This document shows, one piece after another, positions 16,994 through 28,860 of a DNA stretch of 64,000 nucleotides. The DNA is taken from positions 64,001 to 128,000 of the forward strand of contig NZ_FZTC01000009.1 of the NCBI RefSeq assembly GCF_900200035.1. Reading direction: 5' to 3'. Position 1 is the first letter of the stretch. Each line of letters begins with the position of its first letter. The translations under genes and the position numbers were made by a program. The stretch is from Klebsiella grimontii (GTDB lineage: Bacteria; Pseudomonadota; Gammaproteobacteria; Enterobacterales; Enterobacteriaceae). The notes below the pieces were generated by a model, which did not search any database, was not told the DNA's origin, and was given only the letters and a program-made list of their open reading frames with translations.

Positions 16994-16999
16994 ACTTTT

Positions 17000-17038
17000 C
17001 CCGGTTCCCCGATGGCCTTCGCCGCTCGGGGAACCGGG
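17000..17038 (+). terminator. Terminator-like hairpin after yjcE
   Basis: A 12-bp stem (CCCGGTTCCCCG / CGGGGAACCGGG) with a 15-base loop follows the yjcE stop. The T tract after it is short, so termination efficiency is uncertain. Confidence 0.7.
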
Positions 17039-17178
17039 ATTTCACGATGCGCTAGCCGATGAACCCGCAACATTATGTACGCTATCATCACGGATTTTAT
17101 TTGCCTGTGCGAAGAAAGGGAGTGCCTGGCAGATTAGAAGATCTGCGTAATTGCAGAGTAGTGAATAAAATAAAGGCG

Positions 17179-18066
17179 TTATCTTTTTAGAAACTGGATG
17201 AATTTTTTAGAGGTTTCAGAAAGAATGCCAAAATGAGTATAAATAAAGAAATCTCTTATGAAAATGGTATTTTCAATTGCTAGCGGTTTAATTAGGCCGG
17301 CGGTAAGTTCGAGGTGATATATCGGGGCTGGCATCGAGGTTAATAAATCACTGTTGCATATGAGGGATTTTATCGCGGATGATGAAGAGCATTCGATAAT
17401 CGGTTTTGGCGGCGTCATGTTATTATCATGATAGACTTCGGTTAATATCTGCATAGGGGTGCTATCATTTGGCGGCATAATCCACGAATATTCTTCAGTG
17501 TCCTGTAATTTCAAGTTTTTTTTGCCCTGTAACGGATGGTTGCTACGCGAAATAATCTGTATGCTATCCGTGAAGTTTATTTTTCCACGCTCGATGATTT
17601 TATCATTATGCGGCAACGGGCCGCATATGGCGATATCGATGCCATGAGTTAATAATGATTTAAAAAGCTCTGAATCTATGCGATCCTGGATCTTAATATA
17701 AATATCAGGAAAGGCCTGATGGAAGTTGTTTACTTTCTCGATAAAATGGCTGGATAGAAAACTGGATACGCAGCCAGCTCTGACTATTCCTTTCCCTGAA
17801 CCATTAATAAGATCCAGTTCCTGGCGCGCTTTTCGCTCGGTGTTCATTAAGGTAATGGCATGAGGTAAAAAGGCCGTGCCCAGCTCGCTCAGTGAGACCC
17901 CATGCTTATGCCGTTCAAATAGCGTGGCATTCAAATCTGACTCAAGGCCGGATAACAGTCGGCTCAGGCCAGATTGCGTTATTCCAAGTTTGCTTGCCGC
18001 AAGAGTGAGGTTACCCTCTGAGGATACCATGATAAATGCCTGTATTTGCTTCATTTTTATAGACAT
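17179..18066 (-). CDS. LysR-family regulator of the adjacent AEC-ThDP-ADH cluster
   Basis: LysR-type regulator, 295 residues. The N-terminal winged helix-turn-helix (about 5-64) has the pattern LAASKLGITQSGLSRLLSGLESDL. An effector-binding domain follows from about 90, with the two-lobed periplasmic-binding fold that usually senses a pathway metabolite. It is divergent from the transporter gene at 18372, the classic arrangement for a LysR regulator of the facing operon. The inducer is unknown; a substrate or intermediate of the ThDP enzyme is the natural guess. The gene is clearly more AT-rich than the core genes around it, which suggests horizontal acquisition. Confidence 0.9.
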   Translation of the reverse strand: MSIKMKQIQAFIMVSSEGNLTLAASKLGITQSGLSRLLSGLESDLNATLFERHKHGVSLSELGTAFLPHAITLMNTERKARQELDLINGSGKGIVRAGCVSSFLSSHFIEKVNNFHQAFPDIYIKIQDRIDSELFKSLLTHGIDIAICGPLPHNDKIIERGKINFTDSIQIISRSNHPLQGKKNLKLQDTEEYSWIMPPNDSTPMQILTEVYHDNNMTPPKPIIECSSSSAIKSLICNSDLLTSMPAPIYHLELTAGLIKPLAIENTIFIRDFFIYTHFGILSETSKKFIQFLKR

Positions 18067-18371
18067 GTCAAATACTCATTAAACGGTACGTTTTCGCATT
18101 GTATATCAATTTTATTCTATATTACTATCAATGGAAATTATGTAGACAGCATCAAGAAAATAAATTTTCCTGAAAGTGATGGGTAATTATTCATTAAACT
18201 AATTAATTGCTCATTGTAATCTTATATTCATGCCTGACGCGTAAGAATACAATGTGTGCCTGCGAGAGAAGTATCATGGCGATAGCGGGAAGGAGTCCTT
18301 AGTAAGAGTTTTAATCTGTTCGGTTTTAAATCACATATACCTGAAAATCGGTTCTGAAGAGAAATGACACT
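18067..18371. promoter_or_regulatory. Divergent promoter region of the LysR/AEC cluster
   Basis: This 305-base AT-rich region lies between the LysR gene and the operon it probably controls. It includes several LysR-compatible A/T-rich dyads (for example around 18185-18215) and GAAAAT / ATTTTC near 18155. No single operator can be singled out. Confidence 0.4.
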
Positions 18372-19310
18372 ATGACAAATAACAGTATTCTCTTAATTCT
18401 TGGTGCCATCTTACCTGTAATAGTAACCGTTTTGCTTGGTTACATCAGCGGTAAGCGAAAAGATTTTGCGTGGGAGCAGGCTGGCGCGATAAATAAACTC
18501 GTCATGCTCTATGCTCTCCCCCTTAGTATTTTTAGTAATATGGTGATGACCCCGCGTAGTATTGTTATGAATATGGGGCCCGTTGCCGCCGCGATTATCG
18601 TTGCGCTAATTGTAAGTTTTTTAATTCCATTGCTTGTTGCGCGTTATATCTGCAGGCGGGATCTCTCTTTAAGCACGCTGCAGGCGCTGGCGATTGGTTC
18701 TCCTGCCGTTCCTTTTATTGGGACATCGGTGCTGGCTTTTTTATTTGGCACGGTAAGCGCATCGCTGATTACGGTATCAAGCATTACGCAAAACGTTTTT
18801 CAACTTCCGCTGGTTATGATATTAATGTCGTATGCTTCCGGCGACAAAAATAATACATCGTTTATCTCTAGCGTGATTAATGCTATTAAACAGCCGGTAG
18901 TCTGGTCGCCGGTTCTGGCTCTTATTCTCGTGATAATGGATATCCATATTCCCGAGACCGTGGCCATGCCGTTAGGATTATTGGGTAAAGCAACCGGGGG
19001 ACTGGCGCTGTTCTCGGCGGGTATTGTGCTCTATGCGCGTAGTGTAGTGATTACGCTGCCTACTATTATTACCGTTATAGCCAGAAATATTATCGTTCCC
19101 GGACTGTGTTATTTCGCGCTGGTCGGCCTCGGTTTCTCAATGGAGCAAATTAAAGAAGTCGTATTGACGATGGCTATTCCAGTGGGATCGATTGCTATCA
19201 TTATTGCAATGCAATATAAAACGGGTGAACAAGAAATGGCCTCGACCATGGCGTTGAGTATTATTGCCTCGATCCTGACCATGGGTGGATTCATCCTGTT
19301 AACCTTTTAA
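18372..19310 (+). CDS. AEC-family transporter
   Basis: Predicted inner-membrane transporter of the auxin efflux carrier family, which in bacteria includes carriers for malonate, malate and similar carboxylates (MdcF type). The 312-residue product has about ten membrane spans in the 5+5 arrangement. The first half includes MLYALPLSIFSNMVM and the second KATGGLALFSAGIVLYARS, the conserved crossover region. The gene is first in a plus-strand run with the ThDP enzyme (30-base gap) and the alcohol dehydrogenase. By context it moves the enzyme's acid substrate or a product. The substrate cannot be read from the sequence. Confidence 0.85.
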   Translation: MTNNSILLILGAILPVIVTVLLGYISGKRKDFAWEQAGAINKLVMLYALPLSIFSNMVMTPRSIVMNMGPVAAAIIVALIVSFLIPLLVARYICRRDLSLSTLQALAIGSPAVPFIGTSVLAFLFGTVSASLITVSSITQNVFQLPLVMILMSYASGDKNNTSFISSVINAIKQPVVWSPVLALILVIMDIHIPETVAMPLGLLGKATGGLALFSAGIVLYARSVVITLPTIITVIARNIIVPGLCYFALVGLGFSMEQIKEVVLTMAIPVGSIAIIIAMQYKTGEQEMASTMALSIIASILTMGGFILLTF

Positions 19311-19339
19311 TTATGCAGATAGAATAATCAGGTGAGAAT

Positions 19340-21049
19340 ATGCAATTAATTAATATATCTGCCGCGGAAATGATATTATATCGTTTGCAGGCGCTTGGCG
19401 TTGAATTCATCTTTATCAATTCAGGAACGGATTATCCGCCGATGGTTGAGGCCTACTCTCGCTTAAAAAGCGAAGGGTGTTTGGTTCCTGAATTTGTTGT
19501 TTGCCCGCATGAAAACGCCGCGATTGGCATGGCCCATGGATACTATCTGGCAACCGGTAAAGTGCAAGCTGTGATGGTGCATACGAATGTCGGGTTGGCT
19601 AATGCCGCATGCGGGATTATTAATCTTGCCAATAGTAATATACCGGTAATCATTTTTGGCGGGCGCACGCCCATCAGTGAACATTCTCATTTCGGCTGTC
19701 GGAATACGCCTATCGGCTATGGCCAGGAAATGCGCGATCAGGCCGCGCTGGTTCGTGAATCGGTTAAATGGGATTTTGAATTGCGTTATGCCGATCAGGC
19801 CGGGGAACATGTCGATCGCGCCTGGGCGATTGCGAACTCTTTGCCCAAAGGACCGGTTTATTTAAGCTTGCCACGCGAGCCTTTGTGCGAAACTTTTGCC
19901 ACCGACTCGGCCGCCCTGAACTGCCGCCCCTCCCAGCAGCCGATAAGTTTTTCCCCGGCTCCGGACTCGCTGTCAATGGCTGCCACGCTGATTGCCAACG
20001 CCAGGCACCCGGTTATCTTCTCGCAAAGAGGCGCAAGGACCCGGCAAGCCTTCGACCTGATTAGCACCTTCGTCGAACAGTGGGCGATTCCGGTGGTGGA
20101 ATATTGGGGGACCGAGGTGACCATTTCCGCTGCCCATCCGATGTATGCCGGCAATGAGCCAGCTTACTGGTTGTCAAAAGCGGATGTGGTCATCGTCATT
20201 GACTCGCAGGCGCCCTGGATGATTGAGAGTATGAACGTTAATCCGGACTGCAAGGTTATTCAAATTGGTCCCGACCCGCTCTTCTCACGCTACCCGGTTC
20301 GCGGGTATCAATCTGATGTTAACCTGGCTGGTGAAACGGATACGATATTCAAATTACTGGATAATGCATTAAAACCTTATCTGGAGGAGAAAAGCGCGAG
20401 CGTCGAGGAGCGCTATTCCCATGTCGCTGCGCATAATAAAAAAGAAAGAACCACAAGAGATAACGTTGTTGATTCCGCAAACGCAGGGCCTATCGGCAAG
20501 CCATGGTTAAGCTATTGTCTGGGAGCGCTGGCTAATAAATACAACGGTAAAATCACATCTGAATTAACCACATTACCGCAGTTCGCCAACTTCATTCAGC
20601 CGGAAAGCTATTATCAGGAAGCACTCTCCGGCGGACTGGGTGAAGCATTCCCTATCGCCCTGGGATTACAGCTAGCCAATCGCGATGAATTAGTGATCGC
20701 CGCCGTTGGCGATGGTTCTTATCTGTTTTCCAATCCCGCGGTATGCCATCACATTGCCGAGGTAATGAAGCTTCCCGTGCTGGTTGTCGTTGGCAATAAC
20801 GCTGGATGGGGCGCGGTGGCCGGTGGAACGCTGGCGCTATATCCGGACGGCTATGCGGCGAAAATGGATAAGGTTCCGGCGACATCATTTACGTTATCGC
20901 CCGATCTGGCAGCTATCGCTGCATCAAGCCGCGCGGCCGCGATGAAGGTAGATCGCGCTGAGGACTTACTCGATACCCTGGAGGAAGCCGTCAATATTAT
21001 TCGTACTCAGAAGCGTTCGGTGCTGGTTGACGTCATTCTCGGGAAATAA
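19340..21049 (+). CDS. ThDP-dependent 2-oxoacid decarboxylase-like enzyme (benzoylformate decarboxylase/acetolactate synthase superfamily)
   Basis: The 569-residue product has the three-domain fold of ThDP enzymes. The N-terminal Pyr domain carries the cofactor-activating glutamate, E58 in VCPHENAAIG. A His at position 81 (MVHTNVG) stands where benzoylformate decarboxylase has its catalytic H70 and acetolactate synthase does not. The central domain lies at about 200-345. The C-terminal PP domain has the ThDP/Mg signature GDGS (457-460) to NN (486-487). This favours a decarboxylase acting on a 2-oxo acid over acetolactate synthase, but the substrate is unknown. The gene sits between a carboxylate-type transporter and an aryl-alcohol-type dehydrogenase. 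The ribosome site is AGGTGAG. It is not ilvB-like in context: no small subunit is present. Confidence 0.82.
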   Translation: MQLINISAAEMILYRLQALGVEFIFINSGTDYPPMVEAYSRLKSEGCLVPEFVVCPHENAAIGMAHGYYLATGKVQAVMVHTNVGLANAACGIINLANSNIPVIIFGGRTPISEHSHFGCRNTPIGYGQEMRDQAALVRESVKWDFELRYADQAGEHVDRAWAIANSLPKGPVYLSLPREPLCETFATDSAALNCRPSQQPISFSPAPDSLSMAATLIANARHPVIFSQRGARTRQAFDLISTFVEQWAIPVVEYWGTEVTISAAHPMYAGNEPAYWLSKADVVIVIDSQAPWMIESMNVNPDCKVIQIGPDPLFSRYPVRGYQSDVNLAGETDTIFKLLDNALKPYLEEKSASVEERYSHVAAHNKKERTTRDNVVDSANAGPIGKPWLSYCLGALANKYNGKITSELTTLPQFANFIQPESYYQEALSGGLGEAFPIALGLQLANRDELVIAAVGDGSYLFSNPAVCHHIAEVMKLPVLVVVGNNAGWGAVAGGTLALYPDGYAAKMDKVPATSFTLSPDLAAIAASSRAAAMKVDRAEDLLDTLEEAVNIIRTQKRSVLVDVILGK

Positions 21050-21148
21050 TACCTGACTGGCGGCCGCCGCCTTGTTGCTGGCGGTGGTATGCCAGAGATG
21101 ACGACGCGTTCTCTTCTGGCTTTGGGGAAGGTTAATTAAGGAGATTGT

Positions 21149-22276
21149 ATGACCGAGCATTGCGCTTTACCGGGATCGTTTAAGGCTGCCGTTGTCCGTC
21201 AGCCGGGCGGCCCTTTTGAACTGGAAACCGTCCAGTTAAATTCGCTTCAGCCTCATGAGGTCGTTGTTCGTATCGTGGCGACGGGGATGTGCCATACCGA
21301 TATGGTTGCCCGCGATCGGCTCTATCCGATCCCGCAGCCTATCGTGCTGGGCCATGAAGGGGCAGGAGTGGTGGAGGCCGTCGGGGCGGAAGTACAAAAA
21401 GTGGTCCCCGGCGATCATGTCGTACTGACATTTTTATCCTGCGGCGCTTGCCGTCCTTGTCTTGAGGGCGTGCCGGCCAGTTGTCAAAACTTTAATGCCC
21501 TGAATTTTTCCGGCCAGCGTAGTGATGGCAGCCATGCGCTATGCCACCATGGCAACCAAACGCTGCACGATCGCTTTTTCGGCCAGTCATCTTTCGCCGC
21601 GTTCTCCGTGGTCGATCAGCGTAATCTTGTTAAGGTTCGCCCGGATGCGCCGCTGGAGCTGCTTGGGCCGTTGGGTTGCGGTATCCAGACCGGCGCCGGA
21701 GCGGTGTTGAATGCATTAAAAGTAGCAGCCGGAAGCTCTTTTGCCGCCTTTGGCGGCGGAACGGTGGGATTAAGCGGCGTCATGGCTGCCTACGTCGCCG
21801 GGGCAACAACTATCATCGTCATTGACGTGGTTGAGGAGCGCCTGGCATTAGCGCGTGAGCTGGGTGCAACGCATGTGATTAACAGTAAGAAAGAAGATCC
21901 CGTTGAAGCTATCCGGCATATCACTGGCGATGGCGTTGACTTTAGCCTGGAGTCTACCGGGCGGCCTGAGATTGTCCGCGCCGCCGTTGAGGCGCTACGC
22001 CCACGTGGTATGTGCGGTATTGTCGGCGCCTCAAAAACCGGGACCACGTTCGCGCTGGATATGAATGATGTGATGCAAAACTGCAAGGTATTGCGCGGCA
22101 TCGTTGAGGGCGACAGCATCCCGGATATATTTATCCCGCAGCTGGTAGAGCTGTATGTGCAAGGGCGTTTCCCCATTGATAAGCTGATACGTTTTTATCC
22201 CTTCGAGGAGATTAACCAGGCTGCTCACGATAGCGAGTGTGGGAAAACCATTAAACCCGTTATTCGAATCGGATAA
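21149..22276 (+). CDS. Zinc-dependent alcohol dehydrogenase, aryl/benzyl-alcohol type
   Basis: Medium-chain NAD(P)-dependent dehydrogenase, 375 residues. Catalytic zinc ligands are visible as C48 (GMCHTD), H69 (GHEGAG) and C177 (LGCGIQTGAG); structural zinc ligands as C98, C101, C104 and C112. The Rossmann motif GGGTVG begins at about 202, and the acidic residue after the second strand (VIDVVEE) suggests NAD. The LNFSGQRSDGS segment resembles benzyl-alcohol dehydrogenases (XylB/AreB type). It probably interconverts an aldehyde, formed by the upstream ThDP enzyme, and the alcohol. The ribosome site AAGGAG is strong. About 100 bases separate it from the ThDP gene. Confidence 0.87.
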   Translation: MTEHCALPGSFKAAVVRQPGGPFELETVQLNSLQPHEVVVRIVATGMCHTDMVARDRLYPIPQPIVLGHEGAGVVEAVGAEVQKVVPGDHVVLTFLSCGACRPCLEGVPASCQNFNALNFSGQRSDGSHALCHHGNQTLHDRFFGQSSFAAFSVVDQRNLVKVRPDAPLELLGPLGCGIQTGAGAVLNALKVAAGSSFAAFGGGTVGLSGVMAAYVAGATTIIVIDVVEERLALARELGATHVINSKKEDPVEAIRHITGDGVDFSLESTGRPEIVRAAVEALRPRGMCGIVGASKTGTTFALDMNDVMQNCKVLRGIVEGDSIPDIFIPQLVELYVQGRFPIDKLIRFYPFEEINQAAHDSECGKTIKPVIRIG

Positions 22277-24429: not shown

Positions 24430-25036
24430 CATCATTGAGCTCTTTTTGGCAGATGAGCCTGATGAGGGGTGATTTTTTGAATGCTTCTAATGACGAAGTT
24501 TAGCACTATGCGTTATTTTTCTTTTAGCGGTAATAATTCAATCAGTTGCGTGGATGATAGCATTTGGATGCGCTGGTGTTTTATTCTTAAATGTGTTCAC
24601 GAATATTCTTAATGACTTTACGTTTTATTTGTAACTAAATGTGTCATTTTTGAAGGCATTTATTTGTTATTTGAATTTATATTAATTGTGATATTTTTTA
24701 TGTGAATATGTGAGATTTATAATCACCTGATTTTATTTGATTATTTTTAAATTATATTTAATGGTTATTAATGTGAACTATTTATGATCCTGAAGGACAC
24801 CTTATCTCATTCTTGAGGATTTCCCTGCGTTGAGTTATATTTGGGCTGTGAGCTTTTATTAATGAATGGATTCATGTGGAAGTAAAGCTCTTGTATTTTA
24901 GTGAATATAATGCAAGCGATTCATTCCCCTAAAATATACCGACGGTAGTTAAGTTGGTATCCAATCTCATTCGCTAATATATGCCCATAAACAATTGATG
25001 GATTGATTGTTCATCTGGATAAATAGGGGAATACAA
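24430..25036. other. AT-rich leader region upstream of the fimbrial operon
   Basis: This 607-base stretch is strongly AT-rich and has no plausible gene. It should contain the fimbrial promoter. I searched by eye for a fimS-like invertible segment with flanking inverted repeats and a nearby recombinase gene and saw neither, so phase variation by inversion is not supported. Confidence 0.5.
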
Positions 25037-25573
25037 ATGAAAACCAATGTGAAAACGTTAGCTAAAATCCTGGCCTTATCTGCAGGATGCTCTCTGGTTG
25101 CAATGTCTCATGCGGATAACACCATAAAGTTCACCGGAACCGTTGCCGATACGACTTGTACCGCTACTATCGATAATGGCGTTACAGCTATTGAAATGGG
25201 CACTGTTTCGGTAGCAGATTTAAAAGCTAACACCTATAGCGCAGCAAAGAGTTTCTCTTTCACTTTGACCGGCTGCCCTACGGATGCTGGTGCACTGACT
25301 AAAGCCAAAATTACCTTTGGTGGTGAAGCAGATTCTTACAATAGTGATTATTTTAAAAACCAGGCTTCAGTGTCTCCAGCTACCAATGTTGCTGTCGCTA
25401 TTTTTGATAACGCCGGAAATTTACAGAAGAACAATACCGAAGGTTCTGATGTGGATATTTCCACTGGCGAAGCCACCGTTCCGTTTACCGTAAAAATGGC
25501 TAAGTCTGGCGCCGCCGACCCAACTAAAGGTCCGGTAAGTACAACAGTAACTTATAACGTCACCTATTATTGA
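25037..25573 (+). CDS. Fimbrial major subunit (type 1 pilin family)
   Basis: Predicted structural pilin of a chaperone-usher fimbria, 178 residues from ATG 25037 (ribosome site AGGGGA). A signal peptide ends at about residue 24 (SHA/DN). The mature protein has the pilin disulfide pair (C in DTTCTATI and in LTGCPTD) and the C-terminal penultimate-tyrosine motif VTYNVTYY used for donor-strand exchange with the chaperone. A longer in-frame start at 25007 is unlikely. It is first of five genes in one orientation, and an attenuator-like hairpin follows it, which fits higher expression of the major subunit. Confidence 0.9.
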   Translation: MKTNVKTLAKILALSAGCSLVAMSHADNTIKFTGTVADTTCTATIDNGVTAIEMGTVSVADLKANTYSAAKSFSFTLTGCPTDAGALTKAKITFGGEADSYNSDYFKNQASVSPATNVAVAIFDNAGNLQKNNTEGSDVDISTGEATVPFTVKMAKSGAADPTKGPVSTTVTYNVTYY

Positions 25574-25592
25574 TTAAGTGATAAATACATAA

Positions 25593-25618
25593 AGGGAAAG
25601 CAACTGCTTTCCCTGTTT
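25593..25618 (+). terminator. Attenuator-like hairpin after the major pilin gene
   Basis: A perfect 9-bp stem (AGGGAAAGC / GCTTTCCCT) with a 4-base loop and GTTT after it lies between the pilin and chaperone genes. A weak terminator here would lower transcription of the assembly genes relative to the pilin. Confidence 0.65.
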
Positions 25619-25628
25619 GGACACGGTT

Positions 25629-26315
25629 ATGAACAGATTATTATGCTTTGTCTTATTTTTTTTCTGCATTTCAGTATCGCAGGCGAGCGTGGTCGTTGGC
25701 GGTACGCGAGTTATTTTCGATGGAACAAAAAAGACCACGACGGTATCTGTTCAAAATAAAGATAATGTAACAAATATAGTGCAATCCTGGATCTCTATCG
25801 TTGATGATACCTCACCTGCGAAAGATTCATTTATTACTACCCCCCCTCTGTTCAGATTGAAAGCGGGCGAGCAGGGGTTTGTTCGCATTCTCCGCTCGGG
25901 TAAACCCCTACCGGAAGATCGGGAATCTATGTTTTGGCTCAACGTTAAAGGGATTCCGGCCATGGACAACGAACCAGACAAAAACATGGTGCAATTTGCA
26001 ATTAATTCCCGGATTAAGCTTATTTATCGGCCCGCAGCCCTAAAAAACGCGATTCCGGAAAATTTCTCTGAAAAACTGCAGTGGTCCAGTGAAGGAAGAG
26101 AAATCAAGGTGAAAAATAACTCTCCATTATATATGAATTTCTCCGCAATTTATATTAATGGCAAGGCGCTACCTGAGGCGTGGTTTGTCGCTCCTTATTC
26201 AACAATAAAAATACCGGTAGCAAGTGCAACTTCGTCTGGGAAAAGAGAAGTCACATGGAGTGTGATCAATGATTATGGTATGTCAGGGCCGAAATATACC
26301 GCCATCATCCAATAA
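25629..26315 (+). CDS. Fimbrial periplasmic chaperone (PapD/FimC family)
   Basis: Periplasmic chaperone that folds and caps pilin subunits, about 228 residues from ATG 25629. It has a signal peptide (to about SQA/SV) and two Ig-like domains. The FGL/FGS-type F1-G1 region includes the conserved FWLNVKGIP motif and SRIKLIYRP; the lysine of IKLIYRP anchors the subunit carboxylate. An in-frame TTG at 25617 is a poorer start. The 3' end overlaps the usher frame by 47 bases. Confidence 0.9.
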   Translation: MNRLLCFVLFFFCISVSQASVVVGGTRVIFDGTKKTTTVSVQNKDNVTNIVQSWISIVDDTSPAKDSFITTPPLFRLKAGEQGFVRILRSGKPLPEDRESMFWLNVKGIPAMDNEPDKNMVQFAINSRIKLIYRPAALKNAIPENFSEKLQWSSEGREIKVKNNSPLYMNFSAIYINGKALPEAWFVAPYSTIKIPVASATSSGKREVTWSVINDYGMSGPKYTAIIQ

Positions 26316-28860
26316 CGTAAGATGGAATCATGCATTTTCATTGAAAAGCAGCTATGTCGCCATCCTCTGCTGTCTTGGCGCATTTCCGTTATCGACTTCC
26401 GCTGGGGAATATTTTAATCCCCACTTACTTGAAGTCAATGAAACCGGCGCATCAGTCGTAGATTTATCCTATATTTCCCAGGCAAGCGTGCCTCCCGGTA
26501 AATATAACCTCGATGTCTATATTAACGAAAAATTTATTACCTCTGAATCTATCGTTTTTAAGCCGCAAAATGAAGGTGATGGCGCTTCTGCTCAGCCTTG
26601 TATCAGCGTAGCGCACCTAAAAGATTGGTCGATTAAAGTTGAAGACTACCCTGCGCTCACGGTGGCGGGCTCTGAATGCGCAAAATTGTCTGCGATCCCG
26701 GGATGGGAGACCTCGGTCTTGCTTCCACGCCAGCGAATCGATTTTACATTACCGCAGGTCGCCCTGCGGCACCGTCCGCAGGGTTACGTCCCGGAAAGCC
26801 TGTGGCAGCAGGGTATCACTGCCGGGCTGCTAAATTACAACATTTCCGGGCAAAAAACCGATCCGCGGCACGGTGGTGAATCGACATCCAGCCAGTTTGT
26901 CAGCTTGCAACCGGGGCTGAACGTAGGGCCGTGGCGTTTACGTAATTACAGTACCCTTAATCATAATGAGGACGGCAACCAGTGGGACTCCGTCTATAGC
27001 TATATTTCTCGCGATATCCACGCCCTGAAAGGCCAACTGATATTAGGGCAGACTTATACTTCATCAGGCATCTTTGACAGCATTAGCTTCAGCGGTTTGC
27101 AGTTGAACTCTGATAAAGAGATGCTGCCGGACAGCATGAATGGTTTTGCTCCCGTGATAAAAGGGATCGCCCGTACTACGGCGGACGTTACAGTCTATCA
27201 GAACGGATACAGCATCTATAAAACCACGGTCTCTCCTGGAGCATTCGAGATAAACGACCTTTACCCCACCGGGAGCGCGGGCGATCTCTTTGTTAAGGTG
27301 AAAGAATCTGATGGTAGTGAACAGAGCTTTGTTGTGCCTTTTGCCTCGCTGGCGATTCTGCAGCGAGAGGGGCAGGTAGAATATGCTTTCAGCAGCGGGA
27401 AAACTCGCTCCGGAAGCTCAGGCGGAAAAGAATTCAATTTCCTGCAGTCTACCGTCGCCTGGGGGGCATTGAGCAACGTCACGCTGTACGGTGGTTTTCA
27501 GCAGCTGGAAGATAAATATAGCAATGCGCTGCTGGGGGCCGGGTTTAATCTGGGTTCTGTCGGCGCGCTCTCATTTGATGCTTCCCAGTCTTGGGCTGAG
27601 ATAAAAGAAAACCCGGAAGCGGATAAAACCTCTTCCAGCGAGGGGCAGTCTTACCGCGTGCGGTTTAGTAAAGACTTTCCATTAACGGGAACCAACTTTT
27701 CCGTCGCAGGGTATCGCTATTCAACGCATGGTTATTACTCTTTGCAGAATTTCATCGATAACGCCACAGCTAATAGCAGCTGTTGTTCATCAAACGGGCG
27801 GACGAAAAATCGCTTTGACGCCTCGGCCTCGCAGATTCTCTCAGGCTTTGGTTCACTCTCCCTGTCGCTGGTAAGCGAGTCTTACTGGGATGATTCACGT
27901 ATGGAGTCACTGGGTGTCAGTTACAGCAATACCCTTGGGCAGGTGTCATATTTCATCAACTACTCCTATAACCGAAATGTGCAAAGCTCCAGCCAGAACA
28001 GCGACAGTTCGCCATCCAGCGATAATATTATCTCGCTCACGGTGAGCGTACCGTTTGGCGCGAATACCTCAGCCAACTACAACATGAACAGCAGCCGGAT
28101 GGGGGACACTACCCACAGCCTTGGTTTGAGCGGCGCGGCTTTTGCGGACCGATCTCTGAACTGGAATGTGCAGGAAGGGTACAACGCCAGCGACAAGAGC
28201 ACCTCAGGCAACGTCAACCTGAACTACCAGGGGTCTAAAGGCGAGGTGGCCGCCGGATATGGCTATGACAGCTATAGCTCTCACTATAATTACTCGCTGC
28301 GCGGCGGGATGCTCGCGCACTCCGGTGGAATAACGCTATCCCGTTATCTTGGAGAGAGCGTGGCGCTGATTGAAGCCCCCGGCGTCAGCGATGTGGCGGT
28401 ACGCGGCCAGACCAACGTCATGACCGATTCCGCCGGATACGCTGTCGTGCCTTTTGTCCGGCCCTATCACGAAAATAGTCTCTCCCTTGATGAGCAGCAG
28501 GTCTCAGGAGCGGAAATTGATAACATCGTCAGAACGGTGGTACCGACGCGTAACGCTATCGTCAAGGTTAAATATGATACCTGGATTGGCTATAAGGCAA
28601 TGATGACCCTGCGCTTTGGTAACAAAGAAGTGCCTTTTGGCGCGATCGTTTCACTGAGTGATGAAAGCCAGGATGCTAAAGAGAGCAGAAGCGCTATTGT
28701 GGGTGATGCCGGGCAGGTTTATCTGACGGGTCTACCAGAAAAAGGCCGCATGTTGGTGAAATGGGGCGATGAACAGAATTCCCAATGCCGTTTTAATTAT
28801 GATTTTTCAGGCAATAAATCAACCGACGATATTATTTTTTATCAGGCGAACTGTCGATGA
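26269..28860 (+). CDS. Fimbrial outer-membrane usher (FimD/PapC family)
   Basis: Outer-membrane pore that assembles and secretes the fimbria, 863 residues as drawn. It shows an N-terminal chaperone-binding domain (EYFNPHLLEV, about 47-160), a 24-strand barrel with an internal plug (PVIKGIARTTADVTVYQNG, about 292-310), and C-terminal domains ending in a cysteine pair (SQCRFNYDFSG and the final NCR). The true start is uncertain. The first ATG (26269) overlaps the chaperone gene by 47 bases and puts some 25 extra residues before the hydrophobic signal segment, so a later non-ATG start near 26339 is possible. Length fits the family (about 830-880). Confidence 0.9.
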   Translation: MIMVCQGRNIPPSSNNVRWNHAFSLKSSYVAILCCLGAFPLSTSAGEYFNPHLLEVNETGASVVDLSYISQASVPPGKYNLDVYINEKFITSESIVFKPQNEGDGASAQPCISVAHLKDWSIKVEDYPALTVAGSECAKLSAIPGWETSVLLPRQRIDFTLPQVALRHRPQGYVPESLWQQGITAGLLNYNISGQKTDPRHGGESTSSQFVSLQPGLNVGPWRLRNYSTLNHNEDGNQWDSVYSYISRDIHALKGQLILGQTYTSSGIFDSISFSGLQLNSDKEMLPDSMNGFAPVIKGIARTTADVTVYQNGYSIYKTTVSPGAFEINDLYPTGSAGDLFVKVKESDGSEQSFVVPFASLAILQREGQVEYAFSSGKTRSGSSGGKEFNFLQSTVAWGALSNVTLYGGFQQLEDKYSNALLGAGFNLGSVGALSFDASQSWAEIKENPEADKTSSSEGQSYRVRFSKDFPLTGTNFSVAGYRYSTHGYYSLQNFIDNATANSSCCSSNGRTKNRFDASASQILSGFGSLSLSLVSESYWDDSRMESLGVSYSNTLGQVSYFINYSYNRNVQSSSQNSDSSPSSDNIISLTVSVPFGANTSANYNMNSSRMGDTTHSLGLSGAAFADRSLNWNVQEGYNASDKSTSGNVNLNYQGSKGEVAAGYGYDSYSSHYNYSLRGGMLAHSGGITLSRYLGESVALIEAPGVSDVAVRGQTNVMTDSAGYAVVPFVRPYHENSLSLDEQQVSGAEIDNIVRTVVPTRNAIVKVKYDTWIGYKAMMTLRFGNKEVPFGAIVSLSDESQDAKESRSAIVGDAGQVYLTGLPEKGRMLVKWGDEQNSQCRFNYDFSGNKSTDDIIFYQANCR

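Follow-up and report, generated by a model that had tools for sequence, protein, structure and literature searches.

The closest described system to the locus analysed here is the bzfRABCD cluster of Pseudomonas sp. LLC-1, a strain that uses benzoylformate although it is without genes for mandelate racemization and oxidation; in the accessible portion of its report, the cluster consists of genes for a LysR regulator, a benzoylformate decarboxylase (BFD), an MFS carrier, an aldehyde dehydrogenase and a porin (PMC7760541). For Rhodococcus, the excerpts available to us name aryl-C2 fragments of lignin, 4-hydroxybenzoylformate among them, as a source (PMC9811514, PMC10795516). We analysed a 64,000-nucleotide stretch of the Klebsiella grimontii genome (contig NZ_FZTC01000009.1, positions 64,001 to 128,000; hereafter the window, in its full length), in which a LysR-family regulator gene is divergent from genes for an auxin efflux carrier (AEC) family transporter, a thiamine diphosphate (ThDP) enzyme and a zinc-dependent alcohol dehydrogenase (ADH). 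Insofar as the accessible text describes bzf, the two loci share a LysR regulator, a ThDP enzyme with a histidine of the BFD H70 type, a predicted carboxylate carrier and a redox enzyme for an aldehyde; they differ in that bzf has an MFS carrier, an MdlC-type BFD, an aldehyde dehydrogenase and a porin, whereas the window has an AEC protein, an enzyme of the PRK08327 family and a benzyl-alcohol-type dehydrogenase. The locus is accordingly not of the bzf type: regulator and carrier are present, but the ThDP enzyme is not of the MdlC type and no aldehyde dehydrogenase is adjacent. The pathway logic looks like a known one, built from parts that look new (the AEC carrier, the alcohol dehydrogenase and a ThDP enzyme of a different lineage).

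We propose that this cluster is an inducible module for the uptake and decarboxylation of a 2-oxo acid, most likely an arylglyoxylate, either benzoylformate itself or a relative with a hydroxylated ring, a reading to which we give about even odds (roughly 0.5). The LysR protein would sense the acid or its product, and the AEC protein would bring the arylglyoxylate into the cell. The PRK08327 enzyme would then convert it, by way of a ThDP-bound intermediate, to an aryl aldehyde and CO2, and the dehydrogenase would interconvert aldehyde and alcohol with NAD(H), probably in the direction of reduction because none of the adjacent genes encodes an aldehyde dehydrogenase. Where a carrier has no ADH gene at the locus, other cellular enzymes would presumably take the aldehyde. 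A reading made earlier from the sequence alone (the sequence-only reading) had arrived at a comparable pathway for an unspecified substrate. Its view of a carboxylate carrier, ThDP enzyme and alcohol dehydrogenase cluster distinct from acetolactate synthase (ALS) stands, but the dehydrogenase falls outside the conserved unit, and neighbourhood evidence narrows the substrate to aromatic 2-oxo acids without proving it.

The ThDP enzyme and its family

The ThDP protein is a full-length member of NF006203/PRK08327 ("thiamine pyrophosphate-requiring protein"; 717.3 bits, cut-off 456), a model whose name assigns no reaction. It does not belong to the MdlC-type BFDs (NF005485, 131 bits, cut-off 493), to the ALS family (TIGR00118, 123.6 bits, cut-off 538) or to the 2-hydroxyacyl-CoA lyases (NF058623, 114.8 bits, cut-off 600); the profile search that the sequence-only reading had suggested thus bears out its separation of the enzyme from ALS (717 against 124 bits).

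The active-site residues named in that reading are all present (E58, H81, GDG at 457-459 and NN at 486-487), and E58, H81 and the GDG-N motif are conserved. H81 aligns with H70 of BFD and is kept in 86/86 aligned family proteins: 51 in a first count, with the window included, and then 32 and three more distant ones. That first count omitted L067, L077 and L078 (28-31% identity), the duplicate K. pneumoniae strain L029 and 32 further loci; the later check of 32 loci and three distant rows gave H81 in 35/35 and W293 in 34/35. The H81 position is also a histidine in one true BFD and in BFD-like proteins, and a threonine, serine or cysteine in five further ThDP enzymes from the host genome. An insert of about eight residues, containing G119 and R121, is specific to the family; in the structural model, residues 110-133 have a pLDDT below 50.

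An ALS or acetoin branch is scarcely credible as the function of the locus. The gene is named ilvI in one K. aerogenes record (it is otherwise called "thiamine pyrophosphate-requiring protein") and cid genes adjoin the cluster. Against this, the ALS models, like that for sulfoacetaldehyde acetyltransferase, which we had also considered, score far under their cut-offs, no small subunit is adjacent, the host's own ALS 3 large subunit, like four further ThDP paralogues, is without H81 and the insert, and K. pneumoniae has the cid genes at this site without the cluster.

At several alphaproteobacterial loci (L119, L123, L165, L170), further PRK08327-like matches lie close to the main one, which suggests sub-functions within the family. 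Searches of an open-access library listed no paper about the cluster or about a PRK08327 reaction, and the papers from these searches in which the phrase "thiamine pyrophosphate-requiring" was checked give, in the passages available, gene names only.

Neighbourhoods of PRK08327 relatives

The plasmid collection contained 748 matching records, and 20 of the 30 listed matches were retrieved; two were from Klebsiella and two unannotated, leaving 16 annotated stretches from outside the enterobacteria. Eleven of the 16 encode an aldehyde dehydrogenase, annotated twice as succinate-semialdehyde dehydrogenase, and five encode an alpha-hydroxy acid oxidase; pobA-pcaGH and pcaF are also represented, as is the gene for 2,4'-dihydroxyacetophenone dioxygenase. 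With a panel independent of annotation, applied to 6 kb on either side, aldehyde dehydrogenase genes were found at 11/18 plasmid loci, 1/16 genome-contig loci and 5/47 sampled-genome loci, compared with 0/28 control stretches taken elsewhere in carrier genomes.

This signal clusters around the window protein. A quick maximum-likelihood tree (short search), from which L070, a near-duplicate of L069, was omitted, as it was from the 7-kb counts, unites the clade of the window protein (8 rows from Enterobacteriaceae and Neisseriaceae, support 100) with a sister clade of 21 rows (29 rows together, support 99). Within 7 kb, aldehyde dehydrogenase genes occur at 10/21 sister-clade loci, 5/23 of the next loci and 1/28 controls (p=0.00035), and a strict set of ring-pathway genes (pobA, pcaH, pcaB, pcaF or dihydroxyacetophenone dioxygenase) at 9/21, 1/23 and 1/28, respectively (p=0.001). 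Carriers of the TRAP, TTT or branched-chain amino acid type follow the same order (13/21, 8/23 and 5/28; p=0.0025). Among the 10 sister-clade rows that came from genome samples rather than from chosen plasmids, three have aldehyde dehydrogenase genes (p=0.048) and five have strict ring genes (p=0.003).

Closer to the window protein, a Neisseriaceae relative of 52% identity has a gene for the benzoate carrier BenE immediately upstream. Of the two Neisseriaceae loci (51-52%), one has BenE and DUF819 near the gene and the other a KPR-family reductase with an MFS carrier. KPR-family genes (ApbA, 2-dehydropantoate reductase-like) recur near PRK08327 (L079, L003, L007, L081, L090, L165, L166, L168). 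The KPR family includes D-mandelate dehydrogenases, and these neighbours may be 2-hydroxy acid dehydrogenases that feed the decarboxylase. GST and FAA-hydrolase genes, which resemble those of the gentisate pathway, are also among the neighbours.

Several observations weigh against an arylglyoxylate decarboxylase, beginning with the enzyme itself. The sequence-only reading had likened it to BFD, and the comparison holds for one histidine (H81, equivalent to H70) but not for the second, H281: no histidine was found at this position, where the region has a conserved PW, in an alignment of about 23% identity that is approximate in the loop. MdlC (1bfd) and the 4-hydroxybenzoylformate decarboxylases (6qsi, 7orx) are only about 21-25% identical to the window protein, which, compared with MdlC-type BFD, is without H281 and has the extra insert. 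A fold search did not separate BFD from ALS-type enzymes or lyases (Z differences <1), and the best PDB sequence match is a 2-hydroxyacyl-CoA lyase (97 bits). The enzyme could be a C-C lyase or carboligase that forms or cleaves alpha-hydroxy ketones (of the benzaldehyde-lyase, hydroxyacyl-CoA-lyase or acyloin type), with a dehydrogenase that takes the aldehyde or ketol; genes for 2,4'-dihydroxyacetophenone (an aryl ketol) dioxygenase near four loci (L030, L031, L072, L076) would fit such a role. We regard it as improbable in view of the 115 bits against a cut-off of 600 for NF058623, and of a histidine at the BFD H70 position that is family-wide and missing in the five other ThDP enzymes of the host.

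The aromatic context has its own weaknesses. A wider ring-gene panel gives a weaker contrast (sister clade 9/21, next loci 7/23, control 3/28; p=0.017), and genes for hydroxy-acid redox enzymes are not significantly enriched (5/21, 3/23 and 1/28; p=0.072). More distant family members are mostly without aromatic context, as the counts above for the next loci (strict ring genes 1/23, aldehyde dehydrogenase 5/23) and for the sampled-genome loci indicate. The search panel was built in part from the loci counted, the rows are related to one another, and the controls are longer than some of the loci. The LysR-AEC-ThDP order, kept in 6/6 enterobacterial carriers, was not seen beyond them in the neighbourhood survey that the sequence-only reading had suggested: AEC genes were found near PRK08327 outside the Enterobacteriaceae in 0/81 loci within 6 kb and 0/44 within 7 kb, searches that a divergent AEC could escape. 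The aromatic context is consequently borrowed from relatives of 42-52% identity. Nor does a benzyl-alcohol-type ADH accompany the outside relatives, the sole ADH among 21 being of class III (L032). A mandelate-racemase-like (enolase-superfamily) neighbour in L080 best matches sugar-acid dehydratase models, and in L033, a Pseudosulfitobacter plasmid, the PRK08327 gene lies next to genes for replication and partition, and the annotation shows no pathway genes nearby.

Some of these points would suit the same module acting on a non-aromatic 2-oxo acid (for example, a branched-chain or sugar-acid-derived one), with a benzyl-alcohol-type dehydrogenase that is merely broad. Hydroxy-acid oxidases, KPR-family reductases and generic aldehyde dehydrogenases are not specific to aromatic pathways, the combination of aldehyde dehydrogenase and hydroxy-acid oxidase fits non-aromatic 2-oxo acids too, the L080 neighbour resembles sugar-acid dehydratases, and AEC proteins are known for small carboxylates. 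We nevertheless consider a non-aromatic substrate unlikely, given the excess of strict ring-pathway genes in the sister clade over the controls, the BenE gene adjoining the Neisseriaceae relative and the aryl-alcohol type of the dehydrogenase.

If the arylglyoxylate reading is extended to the family, PRK08327 could represent a second lineage of arylglyoxylate decarboxylases, independent of MdlC, with a one-histidine active site, a conserved tryptophan near the second histidine of BFD and its own substrate-covering insert. Such a lineage would be scattered among the alphaproteobacteria, with one large branch in aromatic and lignin-fragment neighbourhoods, and would have been rebuilt in Klebsiella and Cedecea around an AEC carrier, joined in two carriers by a benzyl-alcohol dehydrogenase, as a short import-decarboxylate-reduce module for which aromatic 2-oxo acids could serve as an electron sink. 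We offer this larger picture tentatively, with the odds somewhat against it; were it true, the family would gain a name, a step in aromatic and lignin-fragment catabolism would be filled and Klebsiella annotations would be corrected.

The conserved unit, the alcohol dehydrogenase and host metabolism

The divergent LysR-AEC-ThDP order is kept in all six enterobacterial carriers compared (the window, Cedecea, the Klebsiella genomes G153, G242 and G401, and K. pneumoniae ATCC 13883, L001; L061 was left out, as it was taken to be the same contig as L001). Relative to the window, the AEC protein is the best conserved (83-85% identity), followed by the ThDP enzyme (70-77%) and the LysR protein (59-72%). 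The AEC protein is a member of Mem_trans (PF03547, 121.7 bits, gathering cut-off 25.7); its nearest named model is YfdV (NF007384), to which it does not belong (129.5 bits, cut-off 404). It is probably a carboxylate importer, and the acid that it would take up is probably what the LysR regulator senses. A TACTCATT block adjoining the LysR start, a candidate operator, is common to 6/6 aligned carrier sequences and, in two of them (L060 and K. pneumoniae L029), lies inside a LysR-type T-N11-A dyad; an operator search in the divergent region gave nothing beyond this short shared block. The LysR-AEC spacer is 305 bp in the window, compared with about 180-200 bp in the other five carriers.

The three plus-strand genes had been read as one unit. 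AEC and ThDP are indeed conserved together, but the ADH gene adjoins them in just 2/6 carriers, the window and Cedecea, so that co-conservation of the three, on which the sequence-only reading had staked its pathway, holds only in part. The dehydrogenase itself is much as that reading described it, with both zinc sites kept and a likeness to benzyl alcohol dehydrogenases. Its motifs, read from the sequence, are GMCHTD, GHEGAG and GPLGCG and a four-cysteine CGACRPCLEGVPASC, which we take to mark the catalytic and the structural zinc site, respectively. Full-length phmmer comparisons gave 463 bits to 5tnx and 439 bits to benzyl alcohol dehydrogenase 1f8f, as against 210 bits to class III ADHs; judged by sequence, the protein resembles 5tnx and the AreB/XylB-type 1f8f over their full length and at both zinc sites. 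The 15 nearest relatives listed from the plasmid collection are 57-68% identical, several of them on Pseudomonas putida plasmids.

The dehydrogenase could be an accidental neighbour, with LysR-AEC-ThDP alone as the functional unit, which would be compatible with the other explanations considered here. The gene is not at the locus in 4/6 carriers, begins 99 bases downstream of the ThDP gene and has a GC content above that of the AEC gene. However, Cedecea, the nearest relative, has the same gene order with ADH segments 75-86% identical, and on balance we think a chance association somewhat doubtful. The Cedecea homologue (L005 9732-10885, same contig as L063) is split over two overlapping frames, of 75% and 86% identity, and is either broken or affected by a sequencing error. 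An ADH homologue (E<=1e-90) is found in 5/5 Klebsiella genomes with the ThDP gene and 1/15 without; because the carriers are close kin, we conclude nothing from this co-occurrence. In the other four carriers the homologue is 49-51% identical, and it lies away from the trio in the two loci examined (L181, L182).

Elsewhere in the host genome (6.17 Mb) there is a pcaH-type gene (60% identity), adjoined by a second match (35%), probably pcaG. A full mandelate pathway was sought and set aside: the alpha-hydroxy acid oxidase query matched LldD only, which suggests that the 2-oxo acid itself probably enters the cell. No obvious bzfC-like aldehyde dehydrogenase was found in the host, where the 11 matches (E<=1e-60) were all of 33-39% identity and the top one contains an internal TAG. 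Klebsiella G153 has, in addition to the trio, a true bzf-type set (L103 5613-11145), comprising a LysR regulator, an MdlC-type BFD (813 bits), an MFS carrier (aromatic-acid type, 338 bits, under the cut-off of 419) and an aldehyde dehydrogenase; a BFD above the NF005485 cut-off is found in 1/20 Klebsiella genomes. The K. grimontii host has a second BFD-like ThDP enzyme (L104 7131-9694; C5, about 83 kb), which reaches 379 bits (cut-off 493); its gene is tail-to-tail with a LysR gene whose best model is AlsR, at a score under the cut-off.

Layout, genomic site and distribution

All four open reading frames were found where the sequence-only reading had placed them (Table 1). Of its two gaps, the 99 bases between ThDP and ADH are right, but the AEC-ThDP gap is 29 bases and not 30. 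The cluster is a stretch of about 5 kb between yjcE and a CidR-like LysR gene accompanied by cidAB; with these as neighbours, it adjoins no gene for a CoA ligase, an aldehyde dehydrogenase or an ALS small subunit, in agreement with the earlier description. AT-rich DNA, which that description had also reported, applies to the LysR gene (41% GC), the AEC gene (45%) and the DNA between them (33%) but not to the ThDP (52%) and ADH (56%) genes, the window as a whole being 54% GC. Promoter and terminator scans were near the level of shuffled sequence (13 against 8.6, sd 2.8, and 7 against 6.1, sd 2.6, respectively), and a scan of the cluster edges for repeats gave none that were convincing.

Table 1. 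Features of the cluster and its left border, in window coordinates
Feature	Position	Strand	Remarks
Inverted repeat, terminator-like stem	16999-17039		14 nt, 100% complementary; directly 3' of yjcE, the left neighbour of the cluster
LysR-family regulator gene	17179-18066	-	ORF; Pfam HTH_1 and LysR_substrate
Divergent regulatory region, LysR/AEC	18067-18371		305 bp here
AEC family transporter	18372-19310	+	Pfam Mem_trans
ThDP enzyme, NCBIfam NF006203/PRK08327	19340-21049	+	569 aa; proposed arylglyoxylate (2-oxo acid) decarboxylase
Zn-dependent NAD(P) alcohol dehydrogenase, benzyl/aryl-alcohol (XylB/AreB) type	21149-22276	+	375 aa

The ThDP gene is single-copy in the host, the remaining matches being distant paralogues of at most 28% identity. 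With the window's genome counted, it occurs in 4/392 sampled genomes of the family (E<=1e-100) and, at E<=1e-60, in 5/20 Klebsiella genomes, 7/369 genomes of the class sample and 13/398 of the phylum sample. A search around an alphaproteobacterial carrier found PRK08327 in 30/367 (about 8%) of the sampled alphaproteobacteria (E<=1e-100), three of which were already in the phylum sample.

Transfer of the cluster had been suspected from its AT-rich DNA and its absence at the corresponding E. coli locus. The host is a Klebsiella and not E. coli, but the site is indeed empty in the one K. pneumoniae record examined, where 161 bases separate yjcE from the cid regulator; positions 10000-32000 of the window are 83% identical to K. 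pneumoniae DNA over the 47% that aligns. A distant search of the E. coli collection with the AEC and ThDP DNA gave no match, and in a megablast search the best 20 of 5367 matches listed span yjcE only. In the annotated K. aerogenes (L028) and K. pneumoniae (L029) records, the trio is found elsewhere, between sitABCD/"nitrous oxide-stimulated promoter" genes and SelT/hemin-uptake genes, and without ADH. The window ThDP protein pairs with that of Cedecea (77% identity, support 95) and not with those of other Klebsiella (only 70-72%), which fits a separate acquisition, and the different locus together with the closeness of the Cedecea copy supports the suspicion of transfer.

Downstream of cidAB, positions 25007-28860 of the window carry genes that we read, from their open reading frames, as fimbrial genes of the chaperone-usher type; the K. 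pneumoniae annotation has fimbrial genes here too.

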